A stretch of 64,000 nucleotides of DNA from Nonomuraea antri (GTDB taxonomy: Bacteria; Actinomycetota; Actinomycetes; Streptosporangiales; Streptosporangiaceae), in assembly GCF_013283785.1 (NCBI RefSeq), contig NZ_JABCPZ010000016.1, positions 1 through 64,000 of the forward strand. Reading direction: 5' to 3'. Below are positions 5,358-28,364 of this stretch, one piece after another. The position numbers and the translations under genes were made by a program. Within the stretch, counting starts at the first letter, position 1. Each line of letters starts with the position of its first letter. Under the pieces are notes generated by a model. The model was given only the letters and a program-made list of their open reading frames with translations. It was not told the DNA's origin and searched no databases.

Positions 5358-6125
5358 TCACTCCTCGGCCTCCGGGTTGGCCAGGCGGTCGGCGGTGCGC
5401 TGCAGGTGGCGGGTCATGACGGCGCGGGCCCGCTCGACGTCGCGCTGCTCGATCGCCTCGACCAGCTCGAAGTGCTCGTGGGCGCCGCGAAGGCCCATCA
5501 GCGGCGCGGAGACCTGAGCCCGCTGCAACGACATGAGCAGCGGGCCGTGGAAGGTGTGCACCAGCATCTCCATCGCCGGGTTGTGCGCCGACGAGGCGAC
5601 CCGCACGTGGAAGGCGGCCGACATGGCCATCGTGTAGGTGCCGTCCTCCAGCGCGCTGAGACCCTGGTCGACCAGGACGCGCAACTCCGCGATGTCCGCC
5701 TCGGTGGCGCGCTCCACCACCAGGGGCAGGATGCCGAGCTCGACGACCATCCGGGCCTCGGTGACGTCGAGTGCGGTCATCGGGGCCAGGGTCAGCAGCT
5801 CCGCGAGCCCTTTGCCGACGCGTTCGCTCGACGGGCGGGTGACGAAGGCGCCGCCCCGCGCCCCGACGCGGATCTCCACCAGGCCGCTGGCCTCCAGGAC
5901 GCGAAGCGCCTCGCGGACGGTCACCCGGCTGACCCCGAACTGCTCGCACAGGTTGCGCTCGCTGGGCAGCCGGTCACCGGGGACGAGCTTGCCCTCCCTG
6001 ATCAGGAGCCGCATCTGCTCCACGATGACCTCGGAGATGCGATCGACGCTGACCGGGCTGAACAGGTCTGCGGTGCTTCTCTTGCCCGGTGTGTCGTCCG
6101 ACGGCCTCACTGACGCACTGGCCAT
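5358..6125 (-). CDS. FadR-subfamily GntR repressor (copy 1 of the catabolic locus)
   Basis: A 255-residue regulator: N-terminal winged helix (RISEVIVEQMRLLIREG, then PGDRLPSERNLCEQFGVSRVTVREALRVLE) and a C-terminal FCD ligand domain with metal-type histidines in AAFH, SSAH, HEH and MTRHL. The recognition-helix segment GVSRVTVREALRVLEA is identical in the second regulator at 27486-28223, and long stretches of the FCD domain (VVELGILPLVVERATEADIA) are also identical, so the two probably bind the same DNA sites and respond to related ligands. ATG 6125 is chosen because the 28 residues upstream are uncharacteristic. It is divergent from the ferredoxin gene, with operator-like sites in between; autoregulation is likely. 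An aromatic acid or breakdown product as inducer is inference. Confidence 0.92.
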   Translation of the reverse strand: MASASVRPSDDTPGKRSTADLFSPVSVDRISEVIVEQMRLLIREGKLVPGDRLPSERNLCEQFGVSRVTVREALRVLEASGLVEIRVGARGGAFVTRPSSERVGKGLAELLTLAPMTALDVTEARMVVELGILPLVVERATEADIAELRVLVDQGLSALEDGTYTMAMSAAFHVRVASSAHNPAMEMLVHTFHGPLLMSLQRAQVSAPLMGLRGAHEHFELVEAIEQRDVERARAVMTRHLQRTADRLANPEAEE

Positions 6126-6178
6126 GCCGGCGCCCCCTTCACGATCTCGGTCGGTCCCCCGGCTGCATCGTATCAAGA

Positions 6179-6193
6179 AATGGTCTAACCAAT
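6179..6193. promoter_or_regulatory. Regulon operator O1 (fadR copy 1 side)
   Basis: AATGGTCTAACCAAT, an inverted repeat of the GGT-N3-ACC type used by FadR-subfamily GntR proteins, lying 54 bp before the regulator's start. It differs by one base from O3, read on the other strand. Confidence 0.75.
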
Positions 6194-6227
6194 CTCTAGA
6201 ACAGTCCACTGGTTGGCTCCCGGGCTG

Positions 6228-6270
6228 TTGACCTACCCGATACGCATCTAGGTATATTGGTTAGGCCATT
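6228..6270 (+). promoter_or_regulatory. Ferredoxin promoter with operator O3
   Basis: TTGACC (6228-6233) and TATATT (6253-6258) are possible -35 and -10 boxes, though 19 bp apart. ATTGGTTAGGCCATT (6256-6270) overlaps the -10 end; its complement is AATGGCCTAACCAAT, almost O1. The overlap fits repression by blocking polymerase. Confidence 0.65.
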
Positions 6271-6289
6271 ATCCCGGAAGGAGTCGTAC

Positions 6290-6613
6290 GTGCCGAAGGT
6301 CGTCTATGTCAGCACCCAGGGCGACGAGCACGTCGTCGAGGCCGCGGCCGGTGACACGGTGATGTCCGCCGCGGTGCGCAACGGAGTGCCCGGGATCATC
6401 GGCGAGTGCGGGGGCAACAACTCCTGCGCCACCTGCCACGTCTGGGTGCGCGCCGACTTCGCCGAACGCGCGGGAGGCCCGGGCGACCTCGAGGACGACC
6501 TGCTCGACCTCGGCGTCGAGGACCGGCGGGCCACCAGCAGGCTCGGCTGCCAGATCGAGGTCACCGAGGACCTCGACGGCCTCGTCGTCGAGGTGCCGCC
6601 CAGCCAGGCGTGA
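6290..6613 (+). CDS. [2Fe-2S] ferredoxin, putidaredoxin type
   Basis: A 107-residue ferredoxin that would pass electrons from an FAD reductase to the Rieske oxygenase. Cluster ligands are C40, C46, C49 and C87 in the order CGGNNSCATC and LGCQI, the adrenodoxin/putidaredoxin spacing. GTG 6290 is chosen because GGAAGGAG lies 7 bases upstream and the product begins PKVVYVSTQGDEH, the normal first strand. The matching reductase is 10 kb away at 16168-17433 in the same regulon. The gene appears monocistronic, followed by another promoter before the oxygenase. Confidence 0.93.
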   Translation: MPKVVYVSTQGDEHVVEAAAGDTVMSAAVRNGVPGIIGECGGNNSCATCHVWVRADFAERAGGPGDLEDDLLDLGVEDRRATSRLGCQIEVTEDLDGLVVEVPPSQA

Positions 6614-6641
6614 GCCTCCACTCGCCCATTGCTCGGCCAAG

Positions 6642-6680
6642 AATGGTCTGATAGTTATTCCTTATAGTGAAAGGACCATA
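6642..6680 (+). promoter_or_regulatory. Operator-like half-sites O4 before the Rieske gene
   Basis: AATGGTCTG (6642-6650) and AAAGGACCATA (6670-6680) carry inverted half-sites ATGGTC and GACCAT on either side of an AT-rich stretch with a TTATAGT -10-like box. The match is weaker than at the other sites, and the second half-site abuts the start codon. Confidence 0.45.
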
Positions 6681-6682
6681 GG

Positions 6683-7966
6683 ATGCTACGCCCCGAGATC
6701 AACGAGCTGCTGACCCAGACCGGACCCGGCACCCCGATGGGCGACCTGTTCCGCCGCTACTGGCAGCCGGTGTTGCTGGCGGAGGAGCTCCCGGCGAACG
6801 ACGGCCCGCCGGTCCGCGTCAAGGTCCTCTCCGAACGGCTGATCGCCTTCCGCGACTCCGAGGGCCGCTACGGCCTGATGGACGAGTTCTGCGCCCACCG
6901 CGGCGTCTCGCTCTGGTTCGGCCGCAACGAGGAAGGCGGCCTGCGCTGCCCGTACCACGGCTGGAAGTACGACTACACCGGCCAGGCCATCGAGGTGCCC
7001 AGCGAGCCCGAGACCAGCAACTTCTGCGCCAACGTGAAGCTGAAGTCCTACCCCCTGGTCAAGCGCGGCGACGTGCTGTGGGCCTACCTCGGCGACCCCG
7101 ACAAGCGGCCGCCGCTGCCCGAGTGGGAGTTCGCCACCGTTCCTGAGACCCAGACGTACACCTCCAAGCGGCTGCAGGAGTGCAACTGGCTGCAGGCGCT
7201 CGAAGGCGGCATCGACTCCAGCCACGTCACCTTCCTGCACTCCGGCAGCCTCGACAGCGACCCGCTGTTCAAGGGGTCGCGGGGCAACGCGTACAACAGG
7301 GGCGACCTCAAGCCGTTCTTCGAGGTCGTCGACTACGAGGGCGGCCTGCTGATCGGCGCCAGGCGCAACGCCGAGGAGGGCCACTACTACTGGCGGGTGA
7401 CGCCGTGGGTGCTGCCCAACTTCACGATGGTGCCACCGCGCGGAGACCACCCGATGCACGGCCACTTCTGGGTGCCGATCGACGACGAGAACTGCTGGGC
7501 CTGGAGCTTCGACTACCACCCGACCCGCCCGCTCACCGAGGACGAGGTCACGGCCATGCGGGCCGGCATGGGCGTGCACAGCGCGAACGACGAGAACTAC
7601 CGCCCGCTCGCCAACAAGGACAACGACTACCTGATGGACCGCGAGGCCCAGCGCCGCGGCGAGACCTACTCCGGGATCAAGGGCATCGCCCTCCAGGACG
7701 CCTCGCTGCAGGAGTCGATGGGCCCGATCGTCGACCGCACCAAGGAACGCCTGGTCGCCACCGACGCCGGCATCATCAAGGCACGTCAGAAGCTGCGCAA
7801 GGCGGCGCTGGCGCTCAAGCAGGAGGGCGCGGAGCCGGTCGGCAACCGCGCGCGGGATCAGCGGGTGCGCTCGGTCGCCATCGTGCTGCCGGCCGACCAG
7901 TCGTTCGTCGACGGCATCGGCGAGGCCATGGTCGCCAGGCCCGGCGTCCCGCAGACCACCGTCTGA
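6683..7966 (+). CDS. Rieske non-heme iron oxygenase, phthalate 4,5-dioxygenase-like alpha subunit
   Basis: A 427-residue terminal oxygenase. The Rieske [2Fe-2S] cluster is bound by C70-x-H72 and C89-x2-H92 (FCAHRG, CPYHGW). The mononuclear iron site is D178...H181-x4-H186 in EGGIDSSHVTFLH. Start MLRPEINELLTQTGPGTPMGDLFRRYWQPV and the overall plan match the single-subunit group that includes phthalate 4,5-dioxygenase and related O-demethylases, which need no beta subunit. It would hydroxylate or demethylate an aromatic carboxylate using electrons from the ferredoxin. First gene of a four-gene unit with the 159-residue protein, the PanB-like protein and the alpha/beta-hydrolase-fold protein. 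The exact substrate cannot be read from sequence. Confidence 0.92.
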   Translation: MLRPEINELLTQTGPGTPMGDLFRRYWQPVLLAEELPANDGPPVRVKVLSERLIAFRDSEGRYGLMDEFCAHRGVSLWFGRNEEGGLRCPYHGWKYDYTGQAIEVPSEPETSNFCANVKLKSYPLVKRGDVLWAYLGDPDKRPPLPEWEFATVPETQTYTSKRLQECNWLQALEGGIDSSHVTFLHSGSLDSDPLFKGSRGNAYNRGDLKPFFEVVDYEGGLLIGARRNAEEGHYYWRVTPWVLPNFTMVPPRGDHPMHGHFWVPIDDENCWAWSFDYHPTRPLTEDEVTAMRAGMGVHSANDENYRPLANKDNDYLMDREAQRRGETYSGIKGIALQDASLQESMGPIVDRTKERLVATDAGIIKARQKLRKAALALKQEGAEPVGNRARDQRVRSVAIVLPADQSFVDGIGEAMVARPGVPQTTV

Positions 7967-7989
7967 CATCCCATCAGAGGAGCACTCCG

Positions 7990-8469
7990 ATGACACCATC
8001 GCGCCTGGTCAGCAGCTGCGCCCGCGCGGCGACCGCCGAGGAGGCGGCCTTCAGGATCGACTATCCCCTCTCGGCCGCCAGGAACACCCGGGTGGTGGCG
8101 CTGGACGCCGCGGCCGAGCAGATCGTGCGCCGGGCGGCGCGGATGCGGTGGGCGCAGGCGAAGTTCTACCTCGCCGCCGATCCCGGGCACCACCTCGTCA
8201 CCCTGTCCGGCGAGAGCGTGCCGCTGGCCGGGGAACTGGCGGACAGCAACACCCTCATGCTCGTCTCGACCAGCGGAGAGAACGCCGAGGCGGCCGCGAC
8301 CATCGGCGCGGCCTGCAAGGTGCGCGGCATCATGACGGCGGGCCTGGCCGTCACACCGGGGCGGCTGACCAGCGAGGCGCTGTTCGCGCTGCGGCCCCAC
8401 GCCCGCATGCTGCTGGTCCCCGCCGAGGAGGACGACCTCTTCGAGCTGCTCAGGGCGACCCGCGCATGA
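7990..8469 (+). CDS. Unrecognised 159-residue protein, possible Rossmann/SIS-like fold
   Basis: I do not recognise this protein. It is soluble, rich in alanine, and has a glycine/serine segment LMLVSTSGENAEAAATIGAACKVRG that resembles the nucleotide- or sugar-phosphate-binding turn of SIS domains, but the similarity is weak. GAGGAG lies 7 bases before ATG 7990, so expression is likely. Its TGA overlaps the ATG of the PanB-like gene, so the two are translationally coupled and may work as a pair. No membrane segment, signal peptide or metal motif is visible. Confidence 0.75.
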   Translation: MTPSRLVSSCARAATAEEAAFRIDYPLSAARNTRVVALDAAAEQIVRRAARMRWAQAKFYLAADPGHHLVTLSGESVPLAGELADSNTLMLVSTSGENAEAAATIGAACKVRGIMTAGLAVTPGRLTSEALFALRPHARMLLVPAEEDDLFELLRATRA

Positions 8470-9296
8470 GCGCCGCGACCGCGTCCGGCAAGGTGACCGT
8501 CCCGTCGCTGCGGGCGATGAAGGCCGCCGGGGACAAGAGCGTCTGCCTCGTCGCCTGGGACTACCAGATGGCGCGCATCGCCGACCGGGTGGGCGTCGAG
8601 ATCGTCTCGGTGGGCGACACCGTCGGGGTGAACCTCTGGGGCCAGCCGCATCCGCTGCGGATCACCATGGAGGAGATGCTGGTCGTGGCGAAGGCGGTGC
8701 GGCGCGGGGTCAGCCGCGCGCTGCTGAGCTGCGACTTCCCGTTCGGCCCGCTGCAGGAGGGCCCGGCCGCGGCCGTCCGCGCCGCCGTCCGGCTGGTCAA
8801 GGAGGCCGGCGCCGACCTGGTCAAGCTCGACGGCGCGGCGAGCTTCCCCGAGGCCGTGGAGGCGGTGACCCGGGCCGGCATCCCCGTCTTCGCGCAGTTC
8901 GGGATCACCCCGCAGACCGCGCTCAAGCACGGCGTCGAGTACTCGGCGGCCGCGTCCGCGCGCGTTCCCGACGAGCTGCTGGACGAGCTGGTCGGCGAGG
9001 CCAGGCGGCTGGAGTCGGCCGGCGCCATCGCGCTCAACTTCACCAACTCCGGTCCCGTCGTGGGGCCGGCCGTGGTCGAGGCGGTGTCGATCCCCGTGCT
9101 GGGCGGCTTCGGCGGCGGGCCGTGGCTCGACGGCCGGATCAGGATGACCACCGCCGCGCTCGGCTACTCCGCCGACAACCTCGACCACGAGCCCGACACC
9201 TACCTCAACGTCGCCCGCCTCGCCTACGACGCGCTCAGCCGGTGCGCGGCCGACATCCGCGCCGGGCGGCAGATCCGCGGCGGCATCACGATCTAG
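8466..9296 (+). CDS. PanB-like TIM-barrel protein with altered active site
   Basis: A 276-residue protein aligned by eye with ketopantoate hydroxymethyltransferase. VSVGDTVG matches the PanB VGDSLG metal loop, SCDFPFG the second Asp loop, VKLDGA the VKIEGG loop, and FGITPQ the LGLTPQ segment. The PanB general base (Glu181 in E. coli, in LVLECVP) aligns with Asn in ALNFTN, and the third metal ligand Glu is Asp. It is therefore unlikely to make pantoate; a different aldol, C-C lyase or hydrolase reaction on a pathway intermediate is more plausible. Its start overlaps the preceding stop and it is followed 9 bp later by the alpha/beta-hydrolase-fold gene. Confidence 0.8.
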   Translation: MSAATASGKVTVPSLRAMKAAGDKSVCLVAWDYQMARIADRVGVEIVSVGDTVGVNLWGQPHPLRITMEEMLVVAKAVRRGVSRALLSCDFPFGPLQEGPAAAVRAAVRLVKEAGADLVKLDGAASFPEAVEAVTRAGIPVFAQFGITPQTALKHGVEYSAAASARVPDELLDELVGEARRLESAGAIALNFTNSGPVVGPAVVEAVSIPVLGGFGGGPWLDGRIRMTTAALGYSADNLDHEPDTYLNVARLAYDALSRCAADIRAGRQIRGGITI

Positions 9297-9304
9297 GAGG
9301 CTCC

Positions 9305-10153
9305 ATGCCCTTCGCCGACCTCGACGGCATCCGCACCCGCTACGAGACGGTGGGACAGGGCCCGGCGCTGCTGATGTTCAGCCCGGGCGGCTTCGACTCC
9401 GGGCTGGAGAACTGGACCGGCTTCGGCCGCTACCGTGACCTGGGCTTCGTCGAGGCGTTCGCGCCGCACTACACCTGCGTGATCTTCGACCGGCGCGAGG
9501 CCGCCGCGTCGGGCGGCCGGGTCGAGCGGCTGACCTGGGACAAGTACGCCGGCCAGGCGCTCGCGCTGCTCGACCACCTCGGCATCGACTCCGCCCACAC
9601 GATGGGGGGCTGCGTGGGCTGCTCGACGGCCGCCGCGCTCGCCGTCGCGGCCCCGGACCGGGTGCGGAGCATGGTGCTCTTCTCCCCCGCCGGCGGGCCC
9701 CGCTACCGGATGGCCCAGCACCGGCGCTTCGCGCGGCATCTGGCGTTCGTCGCCGAGCGGGGGCTGGGCGCGGTCGCCGAGCTGGCCCGCGCCACGACGG
9801 ACGGCTTCGGCAAGGACCCGCGGGTCGGCCCGTGGGCGGCTCCGCTGCGTACCGACGAGGCGTTCGCCGCGTCCTACGCCGCGCTCGACCCGGCCCGCTA
9901 CGAGCTGGTCGTGACGGGCAGCGTGGGCGGGCTCTTCGACCGCGACACCGTCCCAGGCCCGGGGGCCGAGGAGCTGATGACGCTCGACGTGCCGGCGCTG
10001 ATCGTGCCCGGCCAGGACGCCTCGCACGCGCCGTCGGCCGCGCGCTATCTCCAGGAGTGCCTGCCCGTCCACGAGTACTGGGACGTCCCGGTGGCCGAGC
10101 AGACCGCGCGGACGGCTCCGGCCCGCATCCTGGAGTTCCTCCGCTCTCACTGA
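9305..10153 (+). CDS. Alpha/beta-hydrolase-fold protein with Cys at the nucleophile position
   Basis: A 282-residue protein of the alpha/beta-hydrolase fold (FSPGGFDSG oxyanion loop, VIFDRREAAASG, later DVPALIVPGQDASHAP). The elbow is GGCVGCS, placing Cys103 where serine normally sits. At the C-terminus, DVPVAEQTARTAPARILEFL lacks the usual catalytic histidine. AGGAGG is ideally placed before ATG 9305. As last gene of the Rieske unit it could be a meta-cleavage-product or lactone hydrolase, or an isomerase/lyase that reuses the fold. The 3' end overlaps the convergent RpiB gene by 7 bp. Confidence 0.85.
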   Translation: MPFADLDGIRTRYETVGQGPALLMFSPGGFDSGLENWTGFGRYRDLGFVEAFAPHYTCVIFDRREAAASGGRVERLTWDKYAGQALALLDHLGIDSAHTMGGCVGCSTAAALAVAAPDRVRSMVLFSPAGGPRYRMAQHRRFARHLAFVAERGLGAVAELARATTDGFGKDPRVGPWAAPLRTDEAFAASYAALDPARYELVVTGSVGGLFDRDTVPGPGAEELMTLDVPALIVPGQDASHAPSAARYLQECLPVHEYWDVPVAEQTARTAPARILEFLRSH

Positions 10154-10611
10154 CCGGCGGACCCGAGCCGACCGGCGTCTTCGAGCGCGCCGATCTGCGC
10201 CACCCGGGCCGCGTGCACACCGCCCTTGAACGGCGTGGCGAGCCACAACGCGAGCAGGTCCTCGGCCTCGTCGTCGCCGAGGACCTTGGTGCCCAGCACC
10301 ATCACGTTGGCGTCGTTGTTGCCACGGGAGATCTCGACCGCGAAGCGGCTGTAGGCCAGCCCGGCGCGCACGCCGCGCACCTTGTTGCAGGCGATCACCT
10401 CGCCCTGGCCGCTGCCGCCGATGACGACGCCGAGGTCGGCCTCCCCCGCGGCCACCCGCCGGCCCACCGCGGCGCACAGCGGCGGGTAGTCGGCGAGGTC
10501 GGCCGTGTGGGTGCCGAGGTCGTCGACCAGGTGGCCGCGTGCCGTCAGCCAGCCGGTCAGCCGGCTCTTGAGCGCGACACCGTGGTGGTCGCCGGCGATC
10601 ACGACGCGCAC
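10147..10611 (-). CDS. rpiB: RpiB/LacAB-family sugar-phosphate isomerase
   Basis: A 154-residue member of the RpiB/LacAB family: start VRVVIAGDHHGVALK, then VVIGGSGQGEVIACNKVRGVRAGLA and GNNDANVMVLGTKVLG. The loop has GSGQGE rather than the CGTG of the E. coli enzyme, resembling the mycobacterial subtype that uses glutamate instead of cysteine as base. GTG 10611 starts one codon after the stop of the upstream decarboxylase-like gene, so they form an operon. Ribose-5-phosphate isomerase B is the best family name, but its place in a catabolic regulon suggests it may isomerise a hydroxy-keto acid or sugar acid. Confidence 0.85.
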   Translation of the reverse strand: MRVVIAGDHHGVALKSRLTGWLTARGHLVDDLGTHTADLADYPPLCAAVGRRVAAGEADLGVVIGGSGQGEVIACNKVRGVRAGLAYSRFAVEISRGNNDANVMVLGTKVLGDDEAEDLLALWLATPFKGGVHAARVAQIGALEDAGRLGSAGQ

Positions 10612-10614: not shown

Positions 10615-11547
10615 TCAGCCCGCCAGCTTCAGGGTGGCGGGCGCGAACAGGTCCTCGATCCTGGCCGGCGCGGCGAGGATGCGCTGCCGCACGGCATGAC
10701 CCATGAGCTCCTCCAGGACGGCCCGGTTGGGCTCCAGCCCGTACGGCAGGGGGTCCGCGCCGGTCTCGGCCAGCACGCGGGCGTACATCCGGTCGGTGGC
10801 GTCGGCCACCTCCCCTGACCTGAGCCGTTCGACGTAGCGCCGCTTGGACTCGGCGAACGCCTCGAAGACGGCGGCGGCGATCCCCGGCCGCTCGGCCAGG
10901 ACGTCGTCCTTGACGACCACGAGATGGTTGATCGGGTACAGGCCGCGCGAGCGCAGGGCGGCGAAGCCGGCCTCGACGGGGTCGGCGATGAGCGGCGCGA
11001 GGTCCGGGTCGTCGGTGTCGACGCCGATCACCGCGTCGAGCTCACCCGCCTTCAGCAGGTCGACCAGCGTGCGGCCGGCGGGGGCCGAGACGACGTTGGC
11101 GGGCGGCCGGTAGCCGGCGACGTGCTCGTCACCGGAGCGCACCCACGTGACCGAGTCGAGGTCGAGCCCGCCCTCGGTGCCCAGGATCGCCCGGCCCCAG
11201 ACGCCCGTGGTGACCGTGTAGCCGCGGTTGACGCCGACCCGCCGGCCGCTCAGCTGCCCGGCCTCGGTGATCGAGCCGTCGCCGCGCACCAGGATCGCGC
11301 CGTGGTGGAAGCCGCGGACCAGGAAGATCGGCAGCGCGTTGAAGCGCACGCCGTGCTCGCGGGCGCACAGGTAGGTGGTCAGCGCCATCTCACTGACGTC
11401 GTAGGCCAGGTCGCGGACCATCTTGCGGAACCCCTGGACGAGGACCGCCTCCTGGGCGAACTCGAGCGGGAAGCCCTCGGGAGCCACGCTCCCGTCGATG
11501 ACGGCCCGGTTGTTGCCCTGGGCTCGGGTGAGAGTTACGCAACGCAT
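10615..11547 (-). CDS. 4,5-dihydroxyphthalate decarboxylase-like protein (paralog A)
   Basis: A 310-residue protein with the periplasmic-binding-protein fold of the Pht5/4,5-dihydroxyphthalate decarboxylase family, which has no signal peptide and acts in the cytoplasm. Visible family segments are DVSEMALTTYLCAR, FHHGAILVRGDGSI, GRRVGVNRGYTVTTGVWGR, and the late GLYPINHLVVVKDDVL. It probably removes a carboxyl group from a hydroxylated aromatic diacid. There is no clear ribosome-binding site before ATG 11547, which lies very close to the operator/promoter region, so the mRNA may be leaderless. It is divergent from the dehydrogenase operon and forms a two-gene unit with rpiB. A paralog sits at 14434-15420. 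Confidence 0.82.
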   Translation of the reverse strand: MRCVTLTRAQGNNRAVIDGSVAPEGFPLEFAQEAVLVQGFRKMVRDLAYDVSEMALTTYLCAREHGVRFNALPIFLVRGFHHGAILVRGDGSITEAGQLSGRRVGVNRGYTVTTGVWGRAILGTEGGLDLDSVTWVRSGDEHVAGYRPPANVVSAPAGRTLVDLLKAGELDAVIGVDTDDPDLAPLIADPVEAGFAALRSRGLYPINHLVVVKDDVLAERPGIAAAVFEAFAESKRRYVERLRSGEVADATDRMYARVLAETGADPLPYGLEPNRAVLEELMGHAVRQRILAAPARIEDLFAPATLKLAG

Positions 11548-11576
11548 TGGCCTATGGTACTAATGGCATGACCATT
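11534..11576 (+). promoter_or_regulatory. Divergent promoter with operator O5
   Basis: TTACGC (11534-11539) and TACTAA (11558-11563) at 18-bp spacing form a plausible promoter for the dehydrogenase operon. AATGGCATGACCATT (11562-11576) is a perfect 5-5-5 inverted repeat (AATGG/CCATT) overlapping the -10 end, the cleanest copy of the regulon motif. Confidence 0.75.
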
Positions 11577-11593: not shown

Positions 11594-12739
11594 ATGAGCG
11601 ACACAGTGCGCGCGGCGGTGCGCGTCGCGCCAGGCACGACCGAGATGCAGGAGTTCCCCTTCCCGGCGATCGACGCGGATTCGGCGCTGCTGCGGGTGGA
11701 GGTCGCCGGCATCTGCGGCACCGACGTGAAGATGTACGGCAGCCCGCCGAGCGCGATCCACGGCCAGGTGATCATGGGCCATGAGAACGTCGGCGTGATC
11801 GCCCAGGCCGGCGCCCGCTTCAAGGCCCGGCACGGCCTGAGCGAGGGCGACCGGGTCTTCGTCGAGCACTATGTCGGCTGCTTCACCTGCGAGTGGTGCC
11901 GCATCGGCGAGTACCGCCACTGCGCGGCCACCGACTGGCGCACCAACCCCGACGCCCGCCGCTACGGCTACACCTCGGCGGAGAACCCCGGCACCCTGTG
12001 GGGCGGCTTCAGCGAGTACATGTACCTGCCGTGGAACGCCGTGCTCCACCGCGTGCCCGACACCGTCACCGCCGAGCTCGCCGGCCTGGTCACCCCCCTG
12101 TCGAACGGCATCGAGTGGGCGCTGCGCGCGGCCGGCGTCGGCTACGGCCACACCGTGCTGATCCAGGGCCCCGGCCAGCAGGGCCTCTCCCAGGTGGTGG
12201 CCTGCAAGCAGGCCGGCGCCGCGCGGATCATCGTCAGCGGCACCACCCGCGACCGGGCCAGGCTCGACCTGGCCCGCGAACTCGGCGCCGACGACGTCGT
12301 CGACGTCCTGACGCAGGACCCGCTGGAGCAGGTCATGGACCTCACCGGCGGCCGCGGGGTGGACTTCGTGCTCGACTGCACCTCGCGCGCCGGGACCGCG
12401 CCCGTGCTGCTCGGCATCGACGCGCTGGTGCGCAGGGAGGGCACGCTGCTCGTCCAGGGCGAGCTGGCCGCCTTCCCGGACTTCCCGATCAAGAAGCTGA
12501 CCGAGAAGGCGATCACCGTCAAGAGCGCCCGCGGTCACTCGTTCAAGTCCTGCGAGCTCGCCCTCGACCAGCTCGCCTCCGGCCGCTTCCCGCTGGAGCG
12601 GCTGGCCACCCACCGCTACGGCATCGACCAGGTCGACCACGCCATCCGCGTGCTGGCGGGCGAGACCGAGGAGGACGCCATCCACATCTCGCTCATGCCC
12701 GAGCTGATCGGCCAGGCCGGTGGGGCGGTGGCCCGGTGA
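11594..12739 (+). CDS. Zinc-dependent medium-chain dehydrogenase
   Basis: A 381-residue alcohol/threonine-dehydrogenase-type MDR enzyme. Catalytic zinc ligands are in GICGTD and GHENVG; the structural zinc cysteines are in [15 protein letters not shown]. The nucleotide fold is marked by [15 protein letters not shown], and [26 protein letters not shown] is typical of the family. ATG 11594 is chosen over ATG 11576 because AAGGAG lies just before it. It would oxidise an alcohol or dihydrodiol intermediate with NAD(P). First of a five-gene operon whose members overlap or nearly touch. Confidence 0.9.
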
Positions 12740-13440
12740 ACGGCATCGTCGTCACCGATCCGCCGCGCACCCCGGCCGGCCTGCGCGACGGCCTCGGCAG
12801 ATACGGCGTCGCCACCGTCCACGAGGCGCAGGGCCGCACCGGGCTGCTGGCGCCGTCCATCTCCCCGGTCTACCGGGGCGCGCACGTCACCGGCACGGCG
12901 GTCACGGTCAGCGTGCCGCCTGGCGACAACTGGATGATCCACGTCGCCGTCGAGCAGTGCCGGCCGGGCGACGTCGTCGTGGTGTCGCCGACCTCGCCGT
13001 CGGACGCCGGCTACTTCGGCGACCTGCTGGCGACCTCGCTGCAGGCGCGCGGGGTGCGCGGCATCGTGGTCGACGCCGGCGTGCGCGACGTCGCCGAGCT
13101 CGAGGCGATGCGCTTCCCCGCCTGGTCGAGATGCGTCTCGGCCGAGGGCACGGTCAAGGAGACCCTCGGCGCGGTGAACGTGCCGATCGTCTGCGCCGGG
13201 CGGCTGGTCGAGCCGGGCGACGTGATCGTCGCCGACGACGACGGCGTGGTGGTCGTCCGCAGGGCCGAGGCGGCGGCCGTGCTCGCGGCCGCCGAGGCGC
13301 GCGAGGAGAAGGAGGCGCTCTCCCGCCTGCGCTACGCCGACGGCGAGCTGGGGCTGGACGTGAACGCCATGCGCGAGCGGCTCGAACGCAAGGGCCTGCG
13401 CTACCTCGACCACGAGACCTACCGGAGGGAGCACGGATGA
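12736..13440 (+). CDS. RraA-fold 4-carboxy-4-hydroxy-2-oxoadipate aldolase (LigK/ProA type)
   Basis: A 234-residue protein of the RraA/HMG-CHA aldolase family. The active-site Arg-Asp pair is in [15 protein letters not shown], with [12 protein letters not shown] and [23 protein letters not shown] as further family segments. The enzyme splits 4-carboxy-4-hydroxy-2-oxoadipate into pyruvate and oxaloacetate, the last step of protocatechuate 4,5-cleavage and gallate pathways, using a divalent metal. The long C-terminal helix (residues about 180-234) is normal for the aldolases and absent in the RNase E regulator RraA. GTG 12736 overlaps the dehydrogenase stop and the TGA overlaps the ATG of the LigJ-like gene. 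Confidence 0.87.
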
Positions 13441-20565: not shown

Positions 20566-20567
20566 GG

Positions 20568-21719: not shown

Positions 21720-21746
21720 CTGTCCTCCTGATGAAAGCCCGGTGGG

Positions 21747-23474
21747 TCAGTCCTGCCGGAGCCCGACTTTGGCGCCGAGCTTGTAGGCGATGACGACGAG
21801 CACGGCGAGGGTGAGCACCATGACGACACCGAGTGCCGCCAGGACGGTGAACTGGCCGTTCTCGTACTGCTCGAAGATGAGAATGGAGAGGACCTCGTTG
21901 CCCGGGCTGTAGAGCAGGATCGAGCTCGACAGTTCGCGGAAGGAGACGACGAGGATGTAGATCCACCCGTCCAGCAGGCCGGGCGAGAGGAGGGGCAGCA
22001 GCACCCGGCGGAACGTCTGCCACCAGCTCGCCCCGCTGACCTGGGCCGACTCCTCCAGCTCGGCCGAGATCTGGTGCATCGAGGTGACCGCGTAGCGCAT
22101 GCCGTACGGCATGTAGCGGGTGCAGTAGGCGATCAGCAGGATGAAGATCGTGCCGTAGATCGGGATGGGGCTGCGCAGGTACACGAAGGAGAGCGCGAGC
22201 CCGAGCACCAGGCCGGGGATCACCAGCGGGACGAACGAGAAGTGGTCCACGAGCTGCCGCCCGGGGATGCGTGAGCGCACGACGATCCACGCGCCGACCG
22301 CCATCAGGATCATGACGAGCGTCGCCGACCCCAGACCGAGCGCCAGGGAGTTCGTCAGCGCCGTCATCGCGTCGGACATCTCGAAGAGCTGGCGGTAGTT
22401 GTCCAGCGACATCGAGGCGAAGGCGTCGCCCGACGGCGCCTGGTAGAACTTCAGCAGCGAGGTGTAGAGCAGCACGAGCAGCGGCCCGACGACGGTGAAG
22501 AAGAAGTACAGCACGATGAGTGCGCCCATGACCGGCCGCCACTTGCCGAGCTCCATCGGCCGCGGCCGGAACCCCTTGCCCGTCACGGTCTGGTAGGTCT
22601 TGCCCGACCTGCCGACGAAATTGGAGATCGTCACGCCGATCAGCGCGAGCACCAGCAGGCCCACCGCCAGCGCGCCGGCCGAGGCGAGGTCGGGCGGGTA
22701 GGAACGCAGCACGAAGTAGATGCGGCTGGTGAAGACGTAGATCCCGTTCTGCAGGCCGAGCAGGGCGGGCACCTCGAAGCTCTCCAGGCTGCGCACCACC
22801 ATGATGAGCACCGCGGCGACGATCGCCGGGCGCGTCAGCGGCACGGTGATCCGGCGGAACACCTGCCACCTGCTGGCCCCCGACATCAGGGCCGACTCCT
22901 CCAGCGAGGGGTCCATCGACCGGAACGCGGCGACCATGAGCAGGAACACGATGGGAGAAAGGTGCAGACCTTCCACCCAGACCATCCCCCACACGGTGAA
23001 GATGTCGAGGAAGGCCGGGCCGAAGACCGGTTCGAGCAGCTTGTTGAGCAGGCCGATGTCCGGGCTCGCCAGGAAGATCCACGAGATGGTGTACAGGATG
23101 CCCGGGATGATCAAGGGGATGATCGAGGCCGCGAAGAAGAGTCCCTTGAACGGGACGTCCGTCCGCACGTTGAGGTAGGCGAGTGCGGTGCCGACGACCA
23201 ACGACAGCACGGCCGATCCCACCGCGAACCACAACGAGTTCCCGATCATGTCGCCGACGCGCGGATCACCGTAGGCGCGGGCGAAACCGCCGAGCGTGAA
23301 ACCGTCGGCGTCGAAGAAGGTGCCCCAGATCAAGTAGTAGAGGGGCACGAGCGCGAGATAGCCGATCAGACCGGCGACCACGGCGATGATGACGATCTTG
23401 GGGGTTGCCAACCGGCGCAGCCGGCCGAGCACGGCTGCCTTGCGGGCAGGGACGGCGGGAGACGCCGTGGTCAT
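21747..23474 (-). CDS. ABC importer permease, fused two-domain (FbpB type)
   Basis: A 575-residue protein with two BPD_transp_1 permease domains fused head to tail, about 12 membrane segments. Each half carries an EAA loop: EESALMSGASRWQVFRRITVPL in the first and EESAQVSGASWWQTFRRVLLPLL in the second. Fused permeases are typical of ferric-iron-type importers. AGAGGTGAGGGC precedes ATG 23474. It would pair with the ATPase and the two lipoprotein binding proteins. Substrate is unknown; regulon membership suggests the aromatic growth substrate or an ester of it rather than iron. Confidence 0.92.
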   Translation of the reverse strand: MTTASPAVPARKAAVLGRLRRLATPKIVIIAVVAGLIGYLALVPLYYLIWGTFFDADGFTLGGFARAYGDPRVGDMIGNSLWFAVGSAVLSLVVGTALAYLNVRTDVPFKGLFFAASIIPLIIPGILYTISWIFLASPDIGLLNKLLEPVFGPAFLDIFTVWGMVWVEGLHLSPIVFLLMVAAFRSMDPSLEESALMSGASRWQVFRRITVPLTRPAIVAAVLIMVVRSLESFEVPALLGLQNGIYVFTSRIYFVLRSYPPDLASAGALAVGLLVLALIGVTISNFVGRSGKTYQTVTGKGFRPRPMELGKWRPVMGALIVLYFFFTVVGPLLVLLYTSLLKFYQAPSGDAFASMSLDNYRQLFEMSDAMTALTNSLALGLGSATLVMILMAVGAWIVVRSRIPGRQLVDHFSFVPLVIPGLVLGLALSFVYLRSPIPIYGTIFILLIAYCTRYMPYGMRYAVTSMHQISAELEESAQVSGASWWQTFRRVLLPLLSPGLLDGWIYILVVSFRELSSSILLYSPGNEVLSILIFEQYENGQFTVLAALGVVMVLTLAVLVVIAYKLGAKVGLRQD

Positions 23475-23553
23475 GCCCTCACCTCTTTCCGAACCAGGTT
23501 GCGATGATCAAGCGCGCGGCGGCACCGGGGGCGCCGCCGCGCGATCGGGTGAC

Positions 23554-24702
23554 TCACTTGCCGTCGACCTGCTCACCGTTGGAGATGACCTGGTCATAGC
23601 GCTTGCTCCACTCGTCACCGTTCTTCGTCAGCTCAGCGACGTCGATCGGGACGATCTCCACCCCCTTGAGCGGGTCGTCGCCCTCCACGATGGCCGGGGT
23701 GAGGCCCTGCTTCACCAGCAGCTCCTGGCCCTCCTGCAGCATCCAGTCGGCGAACAACATCGCCGCGGCGGGATGCTTGGCCGTCTTCATCAGGCCGAAG
23801 CCGTTGGGCCTGGCGATGACCGGCTGCACGAGGGGCAGGTAGTCGACCGGCGCGCCCTTGGCCTTGGCCTGCTCGACGATGTAGGTGTAGTTGGAGGCGG
23901 CGACCGAGAACTGGCCGGCCGACAGCAACTGGCCCTGCACCGTGTGGCCCTTGACGATCTTCGCGCCGCCGGCCATGCCGGTGAAGAGCTTGTCGATCTC
24001 CTCCTTGGTCTTGCCCTGCTTCTCCCAGTACCGGTAGAGGGTCAGGTACCAGTCGGAGTCGCTGAGCTCCATGGCCAGCTTGCCGTCCCACTTGGGGTCG
24101 GCGAGCTCCTCCCAGGTCTTCGGCGCCTGCTCCGAGGTCACCATCTTGGTGTTCCAGCTCGGCGCGAACAGGTTCATGCGCGTGGCCGTCCAGCCCTGCT
24201 GCCGCCCGGCCTCCTGGACCATGCGCCGCCGTTCACCGTCGTAGGTGGCCAGAACGCCTTCGGTGTTCAGGTCGAACAGCTCGGTCGCGTTGGTCTCCAC
24301 CACGTCGTTGCCCTGGTAGCCGGCCTTCTGCTCCTGCACGATCCGCTGCAGCACCGTCTCGGACCCGGCGCGGTACAGGTTCACCTTGACGTCGAACTGG
24401 CCTTCGAACGCCTTCAGCACGGCGTCGGCCACCTCGCTCGTCATGGACGTGTAGAGGTCGAGCGTGCCCTCCTTCTCGGCCAGCGGGACGAGCTTGTCGC
24501 GCCGCTGCTGCCCGGTCATCGCGTTGACCTCGGTGTAGAGCTGCTCCGCCGCGGTGGGCCCGCCGCCGGTCGCGGCCTTGGGCACGCCGGCCGTGGGCGG
24601 GCCGCCGCAGCCCGCGAGCAGGAGCACGAGCGCGGACCCTGAGGCCAGAGCGTGCTTGACGGGCCTACCTCCGCGGTGGCCCGGCACAGGTGCGGTGTTC
24701 AC
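23554..24702 (-). CDS. Solute-binding lipoprotein 1 of the importer
   Basis: A 382-residue family-1 extracellular solute-binding protein. After an unusually long 19-residue n-region comes SGSALVLLLAGCGG with the lipobox cysteine. The mature part has LVPLAEKEGTLDLYTSMTSE, FEGQFDVKVNLYRAGSETVLQRI and ADPKWDGKLAMELSD, as in Fbp/iron-type receptors. GTG 24702 overlaps the stop of the other binding protein as GTGA, and no nearer start codon precedes the signal. It resembles its neighbour closely along the whole length, so they arose by tandem duplication; they may bind different ligands. Confidence 0.9.
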   Translation of the reverse strand: MNTAPVPGHRGGRPVKHALASGSALVLLLAGCGGPPTAGVPKAATGGGPTAAEQLYTEVNAMTGQQRRDKLVPLAEKEGTLDLYTSMTSEVADAVLKAFEGQFDVKVNLYRAGSETVLQRIVQEQKAGYQGNDVVETNATELFDLNTEGVLATYDGERRRMVQEAGRQQGWTATRMNLFAPSWNTKMVTSEQAPKTWEELADPKWDGKLAMELSDSDWYLTLYRYWEKQGKTKEEIDKLFTGMAGGAKIVKGHTVQGQLLSAGQFSVAASNYTYIVEQAKAKGAPVDYLPLVQPVIARPNGFGLMKTAKHPAAAMLFADWMLQEGQELLVKQGLTPAIVEGDDPLKGVEIVPIDVAELTKNGDEWSKRYDQVISNGEQVDGK

Positions 24703-25823
24703 TGGACCTCCCGGCCTGACTGGACGATCTCCTCGTAGAGGGCGTCCCACTTCTTGGGGTTGTCGAGCATCTCCTGCTCGGGCACGGTGATCGTGGTGAG
24801 CCCGGCCAGGGGATCGTCCGCGGTGGGGATCGATCCGACCCGGAAGGACTCGCCGAGGATCTTCTGACCTTCGGTCAGCTCGTAGTCGATGAAGAGCATC
24901 GCCGCCGCGGGGTGTGTCGCCGTCTTCATCAGCGCCACGCCGTTGGGCCGGATCACGATGGGCTGCACCGGGGTTCCCGAGGCCGGGTGCCAGCTCACCG
25001 GGGCGCCCTGGTCGGCGGCCTTGTCGATGGTGTGGCTGTAGGAGGAGGCCGTCACCGCGAACTGACCGGCCGAGAGCAGCTCACCCTGCGCCGTGTGCCC
25101 CTTGGCGATCTTCGCGTTGGCGACGACCCGGTTGAACAGGTCGCGGACCTCGGCGTCCGTCTTGCCCTGGGCCAGGTAGTGCTTGTACATGGCGGCGAAC
25201 CAGTCGACGTCGCCGACCTCCAGGGAGACGAGTCCCTTCCACTTCGGGTCGGCGAGCTCCTCGAACGACTTCGGCTCCGCGCCGGGCTTCACCTTGGCGG
25301 TGTTCCAGCCGACCACGAACACGTTGAACCGGGTCGCGGTCCAGCCGTCCGCCTGGCCCTCCTTGCGCACCGCGGCCCGCAGCGCGCCCTCGTAGGGGTA
25401 GAGCATGTTCTGCTTGGCCATGACGTTGAGCTCGCCGGCGTTCGTCTCGACGAGATCGTTGCCGTGGTAGTTCGCCTGCTGCTCCTGCGCCACCCGCTGG
25501 AGCACCGACTCCGAGTTCCCGCGGTAGACCTCCACGTCGATCGGGTAGGCCTTCTCGAACCCGTCGATGACCTTGTCCAGGTCGGTGTTCGAGGTGTAGA
25601 TCGACAGCGCGCCTTCCTGTTTCGCGAGGTCGAGCAGGACCTTGGTCCGTTCGTCACCGGTGAGCCCGTTGACGCGGTCGTAGACCTCCTGAGCTTTCGT
25701 GCCGGACGCGCCGGCCTTGTCGGCCGGTGCGGGCCCGCCTGCTGACGGCGAAGCGCCGCAGGCCGTCAGGAGGAGGACGGCGGCGGCCGCCGCCGCCGAT
25801 CCGAAGATTTTCTGGTGTTGCAT
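24699..25823 (-). CDS. Solute-binding lipoprotein 2 of the importer
   Basis: A 374-residue paralog of the preceding protein with a classical lipoprotein signal: MQHQKIFGSAAAAAAVLLL then TAC with Cys22 as lipidation site. Matching segments include LLDLAKQEGALSIYTSNTD, FEKAYPIDVEVYRGNSESVLQRV and LADPKWKGLVSLEVGD, plus KGHTAQGELLSAGQF, which parallels KGHTVQGQLLSAGQF in the paralog. It is the first main gene of a five-gene operon (binding proteins, permease, ATPase, MFS). GGGAG lies upstream of ATG 25823. A short ORF with a much stronger ribosome-binding site lies 85 bp upstream. Confidence 0.91.
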   Translation of the reverse strand: MQHQKIFGSAAAAAAVLLLTACGASPSAGGPAPADKAGASGTKAQEVYDRVNGLTGDERTKVLLDLAKQEGALSIYTSNTDLDKVIDGFEKAYPIDVEVYRGNSESVLQRVAQEQQANYHGNDLVETNAGELNVMAKQNMLYPYEGALRAAVRKEGQADGWTATRFNVFVVGWNTAKVKPGAEPKSFEELADPKWKGLVSLEVGDVDWFAAMYKHYLAQGKTDAEVRDLFNRVVANAKIAKGHTAQGELLSAGQFAVTASSYSHTIDKAADQGAPVSWHPASGTPVQPIVIRPNGVALMKTATHPAAAMLFIDYELTEGQKILGESFRVGSIPTADDPLAGLTTITVPEQEMLDNPKKWDALYEEIVQSGREVQ

Positions 25824-25908
25824 GGATGCTCTCCCGCGAGCTCGGCGGGGCGGTGTGCGCACCGACCCGGCGATGATGCGTTTGTGGTCCCCCCGCGAGA
25901 AGTAGTGC

Positions 25909-26009: not shown

Positions 26010-26024
26010 AAAGGTCTAACCTTT
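26010..26024. promoter_or_regulatory. Regulon operator O8 (importer operon)
   Basis: AAAGGTCTAACCTTT, a near-perfect inverted repeat (AAAGG/CCTTT with GGT-N3-ACC core), 48 bp before the upstream ORF and 187 bp before the first binding-protein gene. Confidence 0.75.
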
Positions 26025-26159: not shown

Positions 26160-26174
26160 AAAGGTAATACCATT
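26160..26174. promoter_or_regulatory. Regulon operator O9 (MFS gene)
   Basis: AAAGGTAATACCATT lies 26 bp before the MFS start. It matches O7 in all but the first base. Confidence 0.75.
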
Positions 26175-26199: not shown

Positions 26200-27453
26200 A
26201 TGGGTTCGGCAGACGACACGTTCACCGCCCGCATCCGCACCGCGCCCCGGCGGGTCTTCCGCTCGCTCGCCGTGCCCAACTACCGGCGCTTCTTCGCCGG
26301 CCACGCGGTGAGCGTGATCGGGACCTGGATGCAGCGGGTGGCGCAGGACTGGCTCGTGCTGGAGCTGACGGACTCCCCCGTCGCGCTCGGCATCTCGACC
26401 GCCCTGCAGTTCCTGCCCACGCTCCTGCTCGGCCTGTGGGGCGGCGTCCTCGTCGACCGGCTCGACCGCCGCCGTACGATCATGGCGACGCAGGCGGTCA
26501 GCGCCGTGCTCGCGGCCGTGCTCGCGGTGCTCGTCCTGGGCGACCTGGTGCGGCTGTGGATGGTCTACGCGCTCGCACTCGGGCTCGGCCTGGTCACCGT
26601 GCTCGACGTCCCCGCACGGCACGCCTTCATCACCGAGCTGGTCAGCCCGGACAACTACGTGAACGCCCAGGCGCTGAACTCGACCGTGCACAACGCCGGC
26701 CGCCTGGTCGGCCCGGCGATCGCCGGGGTCCTCATCGCGACCGTCGACATCGGGGTGGCGTTCGCGATCAACGCGCTGTCGTTCGTGGCGGTGCTGCTCG
26801 GGCTCTGGCGGGTCGACCCCCGCGAGCTGCACCGGGTCCCCGCCCTGCCGCGGGCCAAGGGCCAGGCCAGGCAGGGCCTGCGCTACGCGTGGGCGCACCC
26901 CGAGCTACGCGCGTGCCTGTTCCTCGTCGCCGTGGTCGCGCTGCTCGGCCAGCACTTCCGCGTCGTGTTCCCGCTGCTGGCGCGCGACACCTTCGGCGGC
27001 GGCGCCGAGGTCTACGGCTGGCTCACCTCCGCGCTCGGGGTGGGCGCGGTGCTCGGGGCCCTGGCCAGCGCCGCGCGCGTGAGCGCCGGCGCGTGGTCCC
27101 TGCTGCTGTGGACGTTCGCCTTCGCCGGCGTGAACCTCGCCGCCGCGGCCGCCCCCACGCTCGGCCTGGCGCTGGCGGCGGTCGTCGCACTCGGCGTGGC
27201 GAACATCTGCTTCAACACGCTCGCCCGCACGCTGCTGCAGATCAAGGCCGACCCGACGATGCAGGGACGGCTGATCGCCCTGCACAGCCTGATATTCCTG
27301 GGCAGCACCCCGTTGGGCGCGCCGATCGCGGGGTGGGTGTGCGAGCAGTGGGGGGCGCGCACCGGGCTCCTGCTGGCCGGGATCCCGGCCGGGCTCGCGG
27401 CGCTCGCGCTGCTGCCGTGGCTGCGGAAGATCCGCACCCCGCGAGAGGAGTGA
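26200..27453 (+). CDS. MFS transporter, MFS_3 type (second in locus)
   Basis: A 417-residue membrane protein with about 12 segments. Family marks: LAVPNYRRFFAGHAVSVIGT, MQRVAQDWLVLELT, and the loop WGGVLVDRLDRRRTIMATQA. ATG 26200 is preferred because AGAAGGGG precedes it and the upstream part of the frame runs through operator O9. The MFS_3 family is mainly export, though some members import aromatic acids; direction cannot be decided. It is divergent from the importer operon and convergent with the second FadR-type gene. Confidence 0.88.
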   Translation: MGSADDTFTARIRTAPRRVFRSLAVPNYRRFFAGHAVSVIGTWMQRVAQDWLVLELTDSPVALGISTALQFLPTLLLGLWGGVLVDRLDRRRTIMATQAVSAVLAAVLAVLVLGDLVRLWMVYALALGLGLVTVLDVPARHAFITELVSPDNYVNAQALNSTVHNAGRLVGPAIAGVLIATVDIGVAFAINALSFVAVLLGLWRVDPRELHRVPALPRAKGQARQGLRYAWAHPELRACLFLVAVVALLGQHFRVVFPLLARDTFGGGAEVYGWLTSALGVGAVLGALASAARVSAGAWSLLLWTFAFAGVNLAAAAAPTLGLALAAVVALGVANICFNTLARTLLQIKADPTMQGRLIALHSLIFLGSTPLGAPIAGWVCEQWGARTGLLLAGIPAGLAALALLPWLRKIRTPREE

Positions 27454-27485
27454 CGGAGGCGCGGCCCTGCCCAGAAGGGGTCCGG

Positions 27486-28223
27486 TCAGGTGTCGCGCCG
27501 GACGCGGCGGGCCGTCCGCTCGAGGTGGCGGGTCATCACCGCGCGGGCCGCCGCCTCGTCGCGGGCCTGGATGGCGCGGGTGAGCGCCAGGTGCTCCTCG
27601 GTCCCCTGACGCCCCATCGGCGCGTCGGCGTGCGACTCCTCCAGCGACATCAGCAGCGGGCCGTGGAAGCTCTGGACCAGCATCTCGATGGCGGGGTTGT
27701 GCGTGCACGCGGCCACCCGGGTGTGGAACGCGGCCGACATCTCGATGGCGTATTCGCCCCGCTCGACGGCCCGGCCGCTCTCCTCGGCCATGGCCAGCAG
27801 GTCGGCGATGTCGGCCTCGGTCGCCCGCTCGACGACCAGGGGAAGGATGCCCAGTTCCACGACCGTGCGCGCCTCGGTGACGTTCGCGGCCGTCAACGGC
27901 GCCAGCGAGATGAGGTCGGCCAGCCCGGCGCCGAGGCGCTCGGCCGAAGGCGCGGTCAGGAAGGCGCCGCCGTGCGAGCCGACCTTGATCGTGACGAGCC
28001 CGCCGGCCTCCAGCACGCGCAGCGCCTCGCGCACGGTCACCCGGCTGACGCCGAAGCGCTGGCCCAGCTCGCGCTCGCTGGGCAGGCGATCGCCGGCGCT
28101 CAGCCGGCCGTCGCGGATGAGCAGCTTGATCTGGTCGACGATGACCTGCGAGACGCGGTCGACGTTGACGCGGCTGAAGAGCTCCGCCGGGCCGTCGCCG
28201 TCCTCGGCCCTCTTCGTCCCCAT
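27486..28223 (-). CDS. FadR-subfamily GntR repressor (copy 2)
   Basis: A 245-residue regulator closely related to 5358-6125. The winged helix has AGDRLPSERELGQRFGVSRVTVREALRVLE; the FCD domain has VVELGILPLVVERATEADIADL, AAFHTRVAACTHNPAIEMLV and MTRHLERT. The identical recognition helix implies the same GGT-N3-ACC operators. Differences concentrate in the FCD domain and the termini, so the two may respond to different ligands or form mixed dimers. It is divergent from the bicupin/EutA unit with operators O10 and O11 between. Two nearly identical repressors flanking one regulon is unusual. Confidence 0.92.
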   Translation of the reverse strand: MGTKRAEDGDGPAELFSRVNVDRVSQVIVDQIKLLIRDGRLSAGDRLPSERELGQRFGVSRVTVREALRVLEAGGLVTIKVGSHGGAFLTAPSAERLGAGLADLISLAPLTAANVTEARTVVELGILPLVVERATEADIADLLAMAEESGRAVERGEYAIEMSAAFHTRVAACTHNPAIEMLVQSFHGPLLMSLEESHADAPMGRQGTEEHLALTRAIQARDEAAARAVMTRHLERTARRVRRDT

Positions 28224-28262
28224 GTGCGCTCCTCACGTCCGCGGTGGCCGTTTGCCAGGTCT

Positions 28263-28277
28263 GATGGTATGTCCTTT
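28263..28277. promoter_or_regulatory. Regulon operator O10 (fadR copy 2 side)
   Basis: GATGGTATGTCCTTT keeps the ATGGT and CC-TT arms with a one-base change in the ACC core. It lies 40 bp before the regulator start; CAGGTCTGATGG overlaps it as a second partial site. Confidence 0.55.
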
Positions 28278-28333
28278 GGCGGGGTCGCCGCGCAGGCGCG
28301 GGAGGGCCGAGCTGCGCGTTCGATCGGGTGTGG

Positions 28334-28364
28334 TTGACGTCACGTCGCGATTGGTCTTACCGTT
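28334..28364 (+). promoter_or_regulatory. Bicupin B promoter with operator O11
   Basis: TTGACG (28334-28339) and TACCGT (28358-28363), 18 bp apart, with ATTGGTCTTACCGTT (28350-28364) covering the spacer end and -10. A further half-site TGGACCA follows at 28364-28370. Confidence 0.65.

Follow-up and report, generated by a model that had tools for sequence, protein, structure and literature searches.

Background

Which switch governs the catabolic genes near the start of one contig of Nonomuraea antri, and why should their locus encode two related regulators of the same kind? The stretch that we analysed, called the window below, comprises 64,000 nucleotides (positions 1 to 64,000 of contig NZ_JABCPZ010000016.1, assembly GCF_013283785.1). 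Its locus carries the genes of two GntR proteins, here GntR1 and GntR2, among genes for uptake and for the breakdown of what is probably an aromatic acid. In our opinion the answer lies in a 15-bp palindrome, AAWGGT-N3-ACCWTT, which would be the operator of these locus-encoded FadR-subfamily regulators, jointly repressing the locus and inducing it in response to a ligand. We put the probability of this reading at roughly 85%; what we infer is that the proteins bind there and repress, that a ligand relieves them, and that both use the same sites.

Probable operator sites of the locus

An earlier note on this DNA had placed nine such operators, and an exact string search of the window found each of the nine strings once, at the position claimed. 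When a symmetric matrix (18.1 bits) is derived from these strings, its nine top matches in the 64 kb are the same nine sites, with scores of 18.8-27.4, and under a leave-one-out matrix they still score 16.0-26.4. The tenth-best match is a weak site at 6642 (14.4), and the next, at 32380, scores 11.8, which is 2.6 bits lower. The note had also seen a weaker pair near 6642-6680; one member of it stands, whereas the overlapping neighbour at 6650 scores only 8.8. Beyond the listed sites no place in the window reaches 15, and neither the kinase and response-regulator genes before GntR1 nor the TetR gene after the EutA-like gene has a site. By the assigned gene starts all ten sites are wholly intergenic, while intergenic DNA makes up 1257 of the 23032 bp of the span (5.5%).

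Read from the left, AATGGTCTAACCAAT (6179..6193; score 23.7) lies upstream of GntR1, 53 bp from the assigned start codon, and ATTGGTTAGGCCATT (6256..6270) upstream of the ferredoxin gene, followed by the weak operator AATGGTCTGATAGTT (6642..6656) upstream of the Rieske oxygenase gene. One site, AATGGCATGACCATT (11562..11576), is common to two divergent units, which begin with the decarboxylase-like DHPD2 and with an alcohol dehydrogenase (ADH). AAAGGTCTAACATTT (17447..17461) and GAAGGTAATACCATT (17521..17535) stand before the ferredoxin reductase and cupin 1. AAAGGTCTAACCTTT (26010..26024) and AAAGGTAATACCATT (26160..26174), each with zero mismatches, stand before the unit of the ATP-binding cassette (ABC) importer and before MFS2, a transporter of the major facilitator superfamily. 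Finally, GATGGTATGTCCTTT (28263..28277) precedes GntR2 and ATTGGTCTTACCGTT (28350..28364) precedes cupin 2. The distance from site to start codon is 13-53 bp, with the exception of the ABC unit (147 bp).

Transcription units were read from open reading frames (ORFs), GC content at third codon positions and family matches, and their borders are our own reading. They are GntR1; ferredoxin; Rieske onwards; DHPD2-RpiB; ADH onwards; ferredoxin reductase; cupin 1-Pgm; the ABC/MFS1 unit; MFS2; GntR2; and cupin 2-EutA. Every one of them has an upstream site, if one accepts the weak Rieske site and counts 11562 for both of its divergent units, and the claim of a site in every control region thus holds.

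The sites read GGT-N3-ACC or variants of it. The note allowed for one changed base; the core stands, but some sites differ by two. This fits the operator consensus of the FadR subfamily, TKGT-N3-ACMA, in which GT and AC are three bases apart (PMC4494728), and the operator TNGTNNNACNA of the Corynebacterium glutamicum regulators that are also called GntR1 and GntR2 (PMC2230225). By its letters, the motif is of the canonical FadR-subfamily operator type. Two convincing -35/-10 pairs came from a looser scan of our own: the ferredoxin site overlaps the TATATT of a promoter-like TTGACC-19-TATATT, and the cupin 2 site contains the TACCGT of TTGACG-18-TACCGT.

The two regulators

GntR1 (5358..6125, minus strand, 255 amino acids) and GntR2 (27486..28223, minus strand, 245 amino acids) both match the GntR winged helix-turn-helix (PF00392; 70.8 and 70.5 bits) and the FCD domain (PF07729; 76.7 and 76.8 bits) above the curated cut-offs. 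Together with the agreement of the sites with the published consensus, this bears out the assignment to the FadR subfamily with an operator to match. A structure model of GntR1 (mean predicted local distance difference test, pLDDT, 82; predicted template modelling score, pTM, 0.66) has the expected architecture, with an all-helical FCD domain, and in Foldseek it matches structures of the GntR family best, 6az6, 2di3, NanR-DNA and DhdR-DNA among them.

To call the two proteins near-identical, as had been done, was an overstatement, since 151 of 230 residues (66%) agree. The quoted recognition-helix segment, GVSRVTVREALRVLEA, is nevertheless identical in both. Agreement amounts to 50/69 residues in the winged helix-turn-helix, 16/17 at residues 64-80 around the recognition helix and 82/132 in the FCD part, so that the feature of a regulator pair, two paralogues with a near-identical DNA-binding segment, is present here. 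In 27 hand-picked rows, which include both proteins, S66, R67, V68, T69 and R71 are invariant, and so are the FCD residues H173, H181, H218 and H240. Such histidines of FCD proteins can bind a metal. The histidines at 190 and 216 differ between GntR1 and GntR2. Judged from these residues, FCD parts that agree at 82/132 positions and keep four histidines would allow the same ligand as well as different ones.

Among 200 genomes of the family, 19 hold a regulator homologue at E <= 1e-40, and 3 of the 31 family matches at this level were reported with an internal stop. Ten other genomes of the same genus, among those listed, hold no homologue at E <= 1e-40; hence the locus looks accessory. On the tree GntR1 belongs to a clade of 12 rows (support 100/100), which come from ten family genomes, the present one among them, and from two Nonomuraea. 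A separate clade (95/83) unites the second copies of G077, G125, G104, G022 and G090. The window's GntR2 stands apart from this commonest second copy and joins Arthrobacter pascens (100/94) and Streptomyces carpinensis (98/91), and the second copies of G026 and G185 lie in an open fork; several deeper forks of this tree are weak and some branches long. Such a topology does not look like a simple local duplication, and the second regulator was probably gained more than once, or exchanged. In G183 and G026 (L125, L127) further, more distant GntR homologues (51-52%) adjoin cupin 1.

Conservation in relatives and clustering in the genome

If the palindrome is the operator of the locus, it should travel with the locus. 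We assembled 80 loci around an orthologue of the Rieske gene, 42 actinobacterial and 38 proteobacterial; two close Nonomuraea loci were omitted from the matrix counts, which leaves 40 and 38. Further, 31 stretches from the same family were chosen because they hold, or adjoin, a regulator homologue. Matches of at least 15 were counted, with 200 column-permuted matrices as controls. The 40 actinobacterial loci hold 92 such matches (permuted mean 4.8, maximum 57) and the 31 family stretches 79 (mean 2.5, maximum 56), whereas the 38 proteobacterial loci hold 6 (mean 10.1, maximum 64).

As to position, a site lies within 500 bp upstream of the Rieske orthologue in 33/39 actinobacterial loci and in 0/37 proteobacterial ones. 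Such a site is found in 23/25 loci with a GntR1/2 homologue in the stretch, as against 10/51 without. Since all 33 site-bearing loci are actinobacterial and none is proteobacterial, these ten are actinobacterial too, and their regulator may be encoded beyond the DNA that was fetched. In the family genomes G077, G022, G104, G125, G090, G183 and G026 many of the same promoters carry a site, and the 15-mer ahead of cupin 1, GAAGGTAATACCATT, recurs unchanged ahead of its orthologue in G077, G022 and G125. Even the weak site at 6642 is identical in the Nonomuraea loci L011 and L012, with one base changed in L015, and many relatives have stronger sites at similar places.

In the genome of N. antri itself (11,666,463 bases in 580 contigs) the pattern AAWGGTNNNACCWTT occurs, with at most one mismatch, at 10 places, 6 of them inside the locus and 4 outside; with at most two mismatches it occurs at 100 places, 91 outside and 9 within these 22 kb, where the density elsewhere would lead one to expect about 0.17. 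A reversed control pattern has 151 places in the genome. The motif is therefore not enriched genome-wide, only clustered at the locus. This clustering, along with the conservation before the Rieske orthologue in actinobacteria, sustains the idea of one regulon covering the locus.

Outside the locus we inspected all four places with at most one mismatch and one place with two. C37 (L091:2140-2154) is a palindrome, AATTGTTAAACCTTT, with a score of 23.4 ahead of a glycosyltransferase gene, and C574 is another, AATGGTGTAACCGTT, with a score of 18.6 just within the listed start of a GmrSD-type restriction gene (L093:2072-4297); both are probably there by chance. C76 lies within another glycosyltransferase gene, C575 between a LacI-type regulator and a solute-binding protein with a matrix score of only 7.4, and C49 in a stretch without an ORF that passes the filter. 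No aromatic-catabolic gene is found at these five places; they are a small part of the two-mismatch places listed, which were themselves about half of the 100, and an outlying target may therefore exist. The comparisons across actinobacteria support a regulon well, and that a conserved FadR-type regulon is real we regard as well supported by the sequences.

Points against, and other explanations

Several results weigh against our reading. The genome counts are partly circular because the pattern was derived from the sites themselves, and for this reason the window matrix was tested on loci outside its construction. There, 6/31 family stretches have no match of at least 15, and 6/39 actinobacterial loci have no such site before the Rieske gene. 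Of the 25 loci with a GntR homologue, two miss the threshold at this place (L026 with 14.3, L079 with 13.5), and some promoters of the relatives lack a site. The permuted controls reach 56-64 at the extreme, probably because some permutations exchange columns of similar content. Nor can the loci be counted as independent: many come from mycobacteria or from other close relatives, and L013 and L014 seem to be nearly the same locus twice (without gaps, 13235 of 15559 letters agree). The off-locus palindrome C37 scores as high as sites of the locus. As to promoters, the note had sites overlapping -10 boxes; this stands for the ferredoxin and cupin 2 sites, but a generic promoter scan of 5300-25200 stayed at chance level (1 found, 0.6 expected), and without an excess of promoters the overlap is suggestive only. 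By analogy with C. glutamicum GntR1/2, which activates ptsG (PMC2230225), some single sites may also serve activation.

Could the palindromes belong to another, unlinked regulator, or be chance AT-rich promoter sequence? In favour of this, the genome holds 64 matches to GntR1 at E <= 0.001, yet the next relative after GntR2 is only 34% identical. Moreover, the sites track the locus across actinobacteria and are missing before the Rieske gene in proteobacterial loci, and their type fits FadR-subfamily proteins. We consider this explanation very improbable. A more serious contender is that GntR1 alone controls the whole locus, GntR2 being a recently acquired relic or controlling only its own promoter and the cupin 2-EutA unit. 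Genomes with a single regulator at E <= 1e-40 (G146, G106, G108) have operators at the same promoters, the AAAGG variant included; one copy is found in 9/19 positive family genomes, and GntR2 branches with regulators of other families. GntR2 is intact, however, with the recognition segment and the FCD residues that never vary still in place; two operators lie in the gap before its gene, and at least two copies are present in 10/19 genomes. Control by GntR1 alone is thus possible, although we would not bet on it.

The two proteins could also share their operators and sense different compounds, with full induction needing both or with each tuning a part of the pathway. A recognition segment with 16/17 identities beside an FCD part with 82/132 speaks for this, and so does the fact that second copies in the family belong to two or more distinct clades. 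The FCD differences, on the other hand, are spread over the whole domain, and the C. glutamicum pair shares its ligands and is described as redundant (PMC2230225). Our attitude to two-signal control is accordingly tentative, and we lean away from it. A bolder version would see in the locus a pathway for an aromatic polycarboxylate that has not been described before, with three decarboxylase-like enzymes and a Rieske oxygenase clade marked by an extra pocket arginine in 80/80 relatives. It would combine a regulon for this pathway, conserved in actinobacteria and under FadR-type instead of IclR-type control, with a second repressor drawn from different clades, carrying the same recognition segment and gained repeatedly on one operator set, and with two-signal control by the substrate and a later intermediate; taken whole, this is speculative and rather unlikely.

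Proposed mechanism and closest known systems

Under joint control of the locus by its own regulators, a regulator dimer would occupy the promoter or leader of each unit, or the DNA next to it, and block transcription, including that of its own gene. An aromatic carboxylate or an early intermediate would enter the cell and bind in the FCD domain, and the regulator would then let go of the DNA, so that uptake, dioxygenase, decarboxylases and ring cleavage would be induced together. The simplest model would be occlusion of RNA polymerase, relieved by the acid bound in the FCD domain, and GntR1 and GntR2 would probably read the same sites. We also considered a division of labour, with AAAGG sites for GntR2 and AATGG sites for GntR1, and rejected it, as single-regulator genomes also carry AAAGG (G146). 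Nor is looping between paired sites supported: in the gap between the second solute-binding-protein gene and MFS2 the paired sites are 150 bp apart here, about 200-230 bp in G077 and G022, and about 900-1000 bp in G146, G106, G108 and G090. With such variable spacing, the sites seem independent, each serving its own promoter without a fixed loop.

A FadR-subfamily operator with two related regulators is a known kind of switch, and the precedent for the pair is GntR1/GntR2 of the C. glutamicum gluconate regulon (PMC2230225). There, likewise, two paralogous GntR-FCD regulators control uptake and catabolism through 15-bp operators of the TNGTNNNACNA type. That pair is 78% identical, as against 66% here, and its targets are scattered and concern gluconate, whereas ours lie in one locus and probably concern an aromatic acid. 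Binding, common ligands and redundancy were demonstrated by experiment in C. glutamicum (PMC2230225). PdhR, LldR, GlcC, DgoR and ExuR have the same domain pair, operator core, spacing and double sites in divergons; none of the FadR-subfamily regulators named in that account controls a phthalate-type locus, and the outer arms AAWGG/CCWTT describe the window's set (PMC4494728).

The phthalate-isomer systems resemble ours in being regulated Rieske-dioxygenase loci (PMC8222616, PMC13040137). Their regulators and operators are of the IclR type, however, and not GntR-FCD as here. OphR, TphR and IphR are all IclR-family proteins (PMC8222616), so a pair of the FadR type meets a related need in another way. 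The window locus further differs in its Rieske pocket, in a separate ferredoxin and reductase, and in many extra genes. The listings from our literature searches contained no report of this operator or locus, a result that extends to these searches and the library used for them.

Genes of the locus and the probable pathway

After GntR1 the plus strand carries the 2Fe-2S ferredoxin (6290..6613; PF00111) and the LigXa_C-type Rieske oxygenase (6683..7966; PF19301, PF00355). The best solved relative of the latter is 9INA (453 bits), an isophthalate dioxygenase (PMC12445078). With pocket residues numbered as in that paper and the alignment read by ourselves, V178, R234 and H257 of the Comamonas isophthalate dioxygenase are kept, whereas F249 is replaced by R and L198 by N. 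All five positions, the R, the N and the three conserved ones, are unchanged in 80/80 Rieske loci (42 actinobacterial, 38 proteobacterial), which sets this Rieske clade apart by its pocket and probably also by its substrate. Some relatives of the Rieske gene are on plasmids: Mycolicibacterium frederiksbergense LB 501T (L035) is among them, as are several Sinorhizobium and Caballeronia.

Next on the plus strand are a PanB-like enzyme of the ketopantoate hydroxymethyltransferase family (8400..9296, start approximate; PF02548, 197.9 bits on a longer ORF, below the NCBIfam panB cut-offs) and an alpha/beta hydrolase (9293..10153; PF00561 on a longer ORF). An RpiB-like isomerase (10147..10611; PF02502) and DHPD2 (10615..11547) lie on the minus strand. 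DHPD2 matches no Pfam or NCBIfam family at 0.001 and is named 4,5-dihydroxyphthalate-decarboxylase-like for its likeness to DHPD1 (32% identical). Most actinobacterial loci of the cluster have the PanB-like enzyme, and many have the RpiB-like one. The plus strand continues with ADH of the zinc alcohol dehydrogenase family (11594..12739; PF08240, PF00107), an amidohydrolase 2 family protein (13440..14432, start approximate; PF04909, 177.8 bits on a longer ORF), DHPD1 (14434..15420), likewise 4,5-dihydroxyphthalate-decarboxylase-like, with 284.6 bits to the solved 4,5-dihydroxyphthalate decarboxylase (PDB 9jp7), and the 3,4-dihydroxyphthalate decarboxylase PhtC (15420..16154; NF053537, 299.8 bits, cut-off 200).

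The ferredoxin reductase follows on the minus strand (16168..17433; PF07992, PF14759), and on the plus strand cupin 1 (17572..18564; PF07883) and Pgm, a phosphoglycerate-mutase-like protein (18561..19349; NF010718, 372.5 bits, cut-off 366). Family matches identify MFS1 and the ABC importer, with its ATPase, permease and two solute-binding proteins, on the minus strand (19351..25862), and MFS2 (26200..27453; PF05977) is on the plus strand. Cupin 2 (28390..29526, plus; PF07883 on the containing ORF) is distantly gentisate-dioxygenase-like, and its NCBIfam match to 5-aminosalicylate dioxygenase is weak (34 bits, cut-off 650). Last on the plus strand comes the EutA-like protein (29586..31061, start approximate; PF06277, 356.6 bits, well below the NCBIfam EutA cut-offs). 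No ethanolamine ammonia-lyase gene appears among the family matches in its surroundings. In many actinobacterial and Rhodobacteraceae loci it adjoins cupin 2, and since it stays there it may have a role in this pathway.

The phthalate-type markers are PhtC, above its cut-off, and the match of DHPD1; the dioxygenase is nearest, among solved structures, to isophthalate dioxygenase but differs in two pocket residues. From their sequences, the genes of the locus probably point to the breakdown of a phthalate-type aromatic carboxylate. A substrate bearing more than two carboxylates would go well with the extra arginine and with three proteins that resemble decarboxylases, though here we are guessing. 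We rejected riboflavin or lumichrome catabolism, whose enzymes, namely a P450, a thiamin-dependent decarboxylase, a xanthine-oxidase-like enzyme and a two-subunit Rieske oxygenase (PMC12746152), are absent from the Pfam matches of the 30 ORFs scanned.

Implications

To the knowledge of the authors of a review, aerobic isophthalate genes have been validated only in two Comamonas strains, and high-identity homologues exist (PMC13040137). The present analysis supplies an operator and a regulator clade for a locus that is widespread among actinobacteria and has so far only a probable substrate. The operator could be used for finding further genes of the pathway and for building a sensor. Finally, the several two-regulator states found among the relatives amount to a natural experiment, in which one could ask whether FadR-type repressors that occur in pairs are redundant or answer to two signals.

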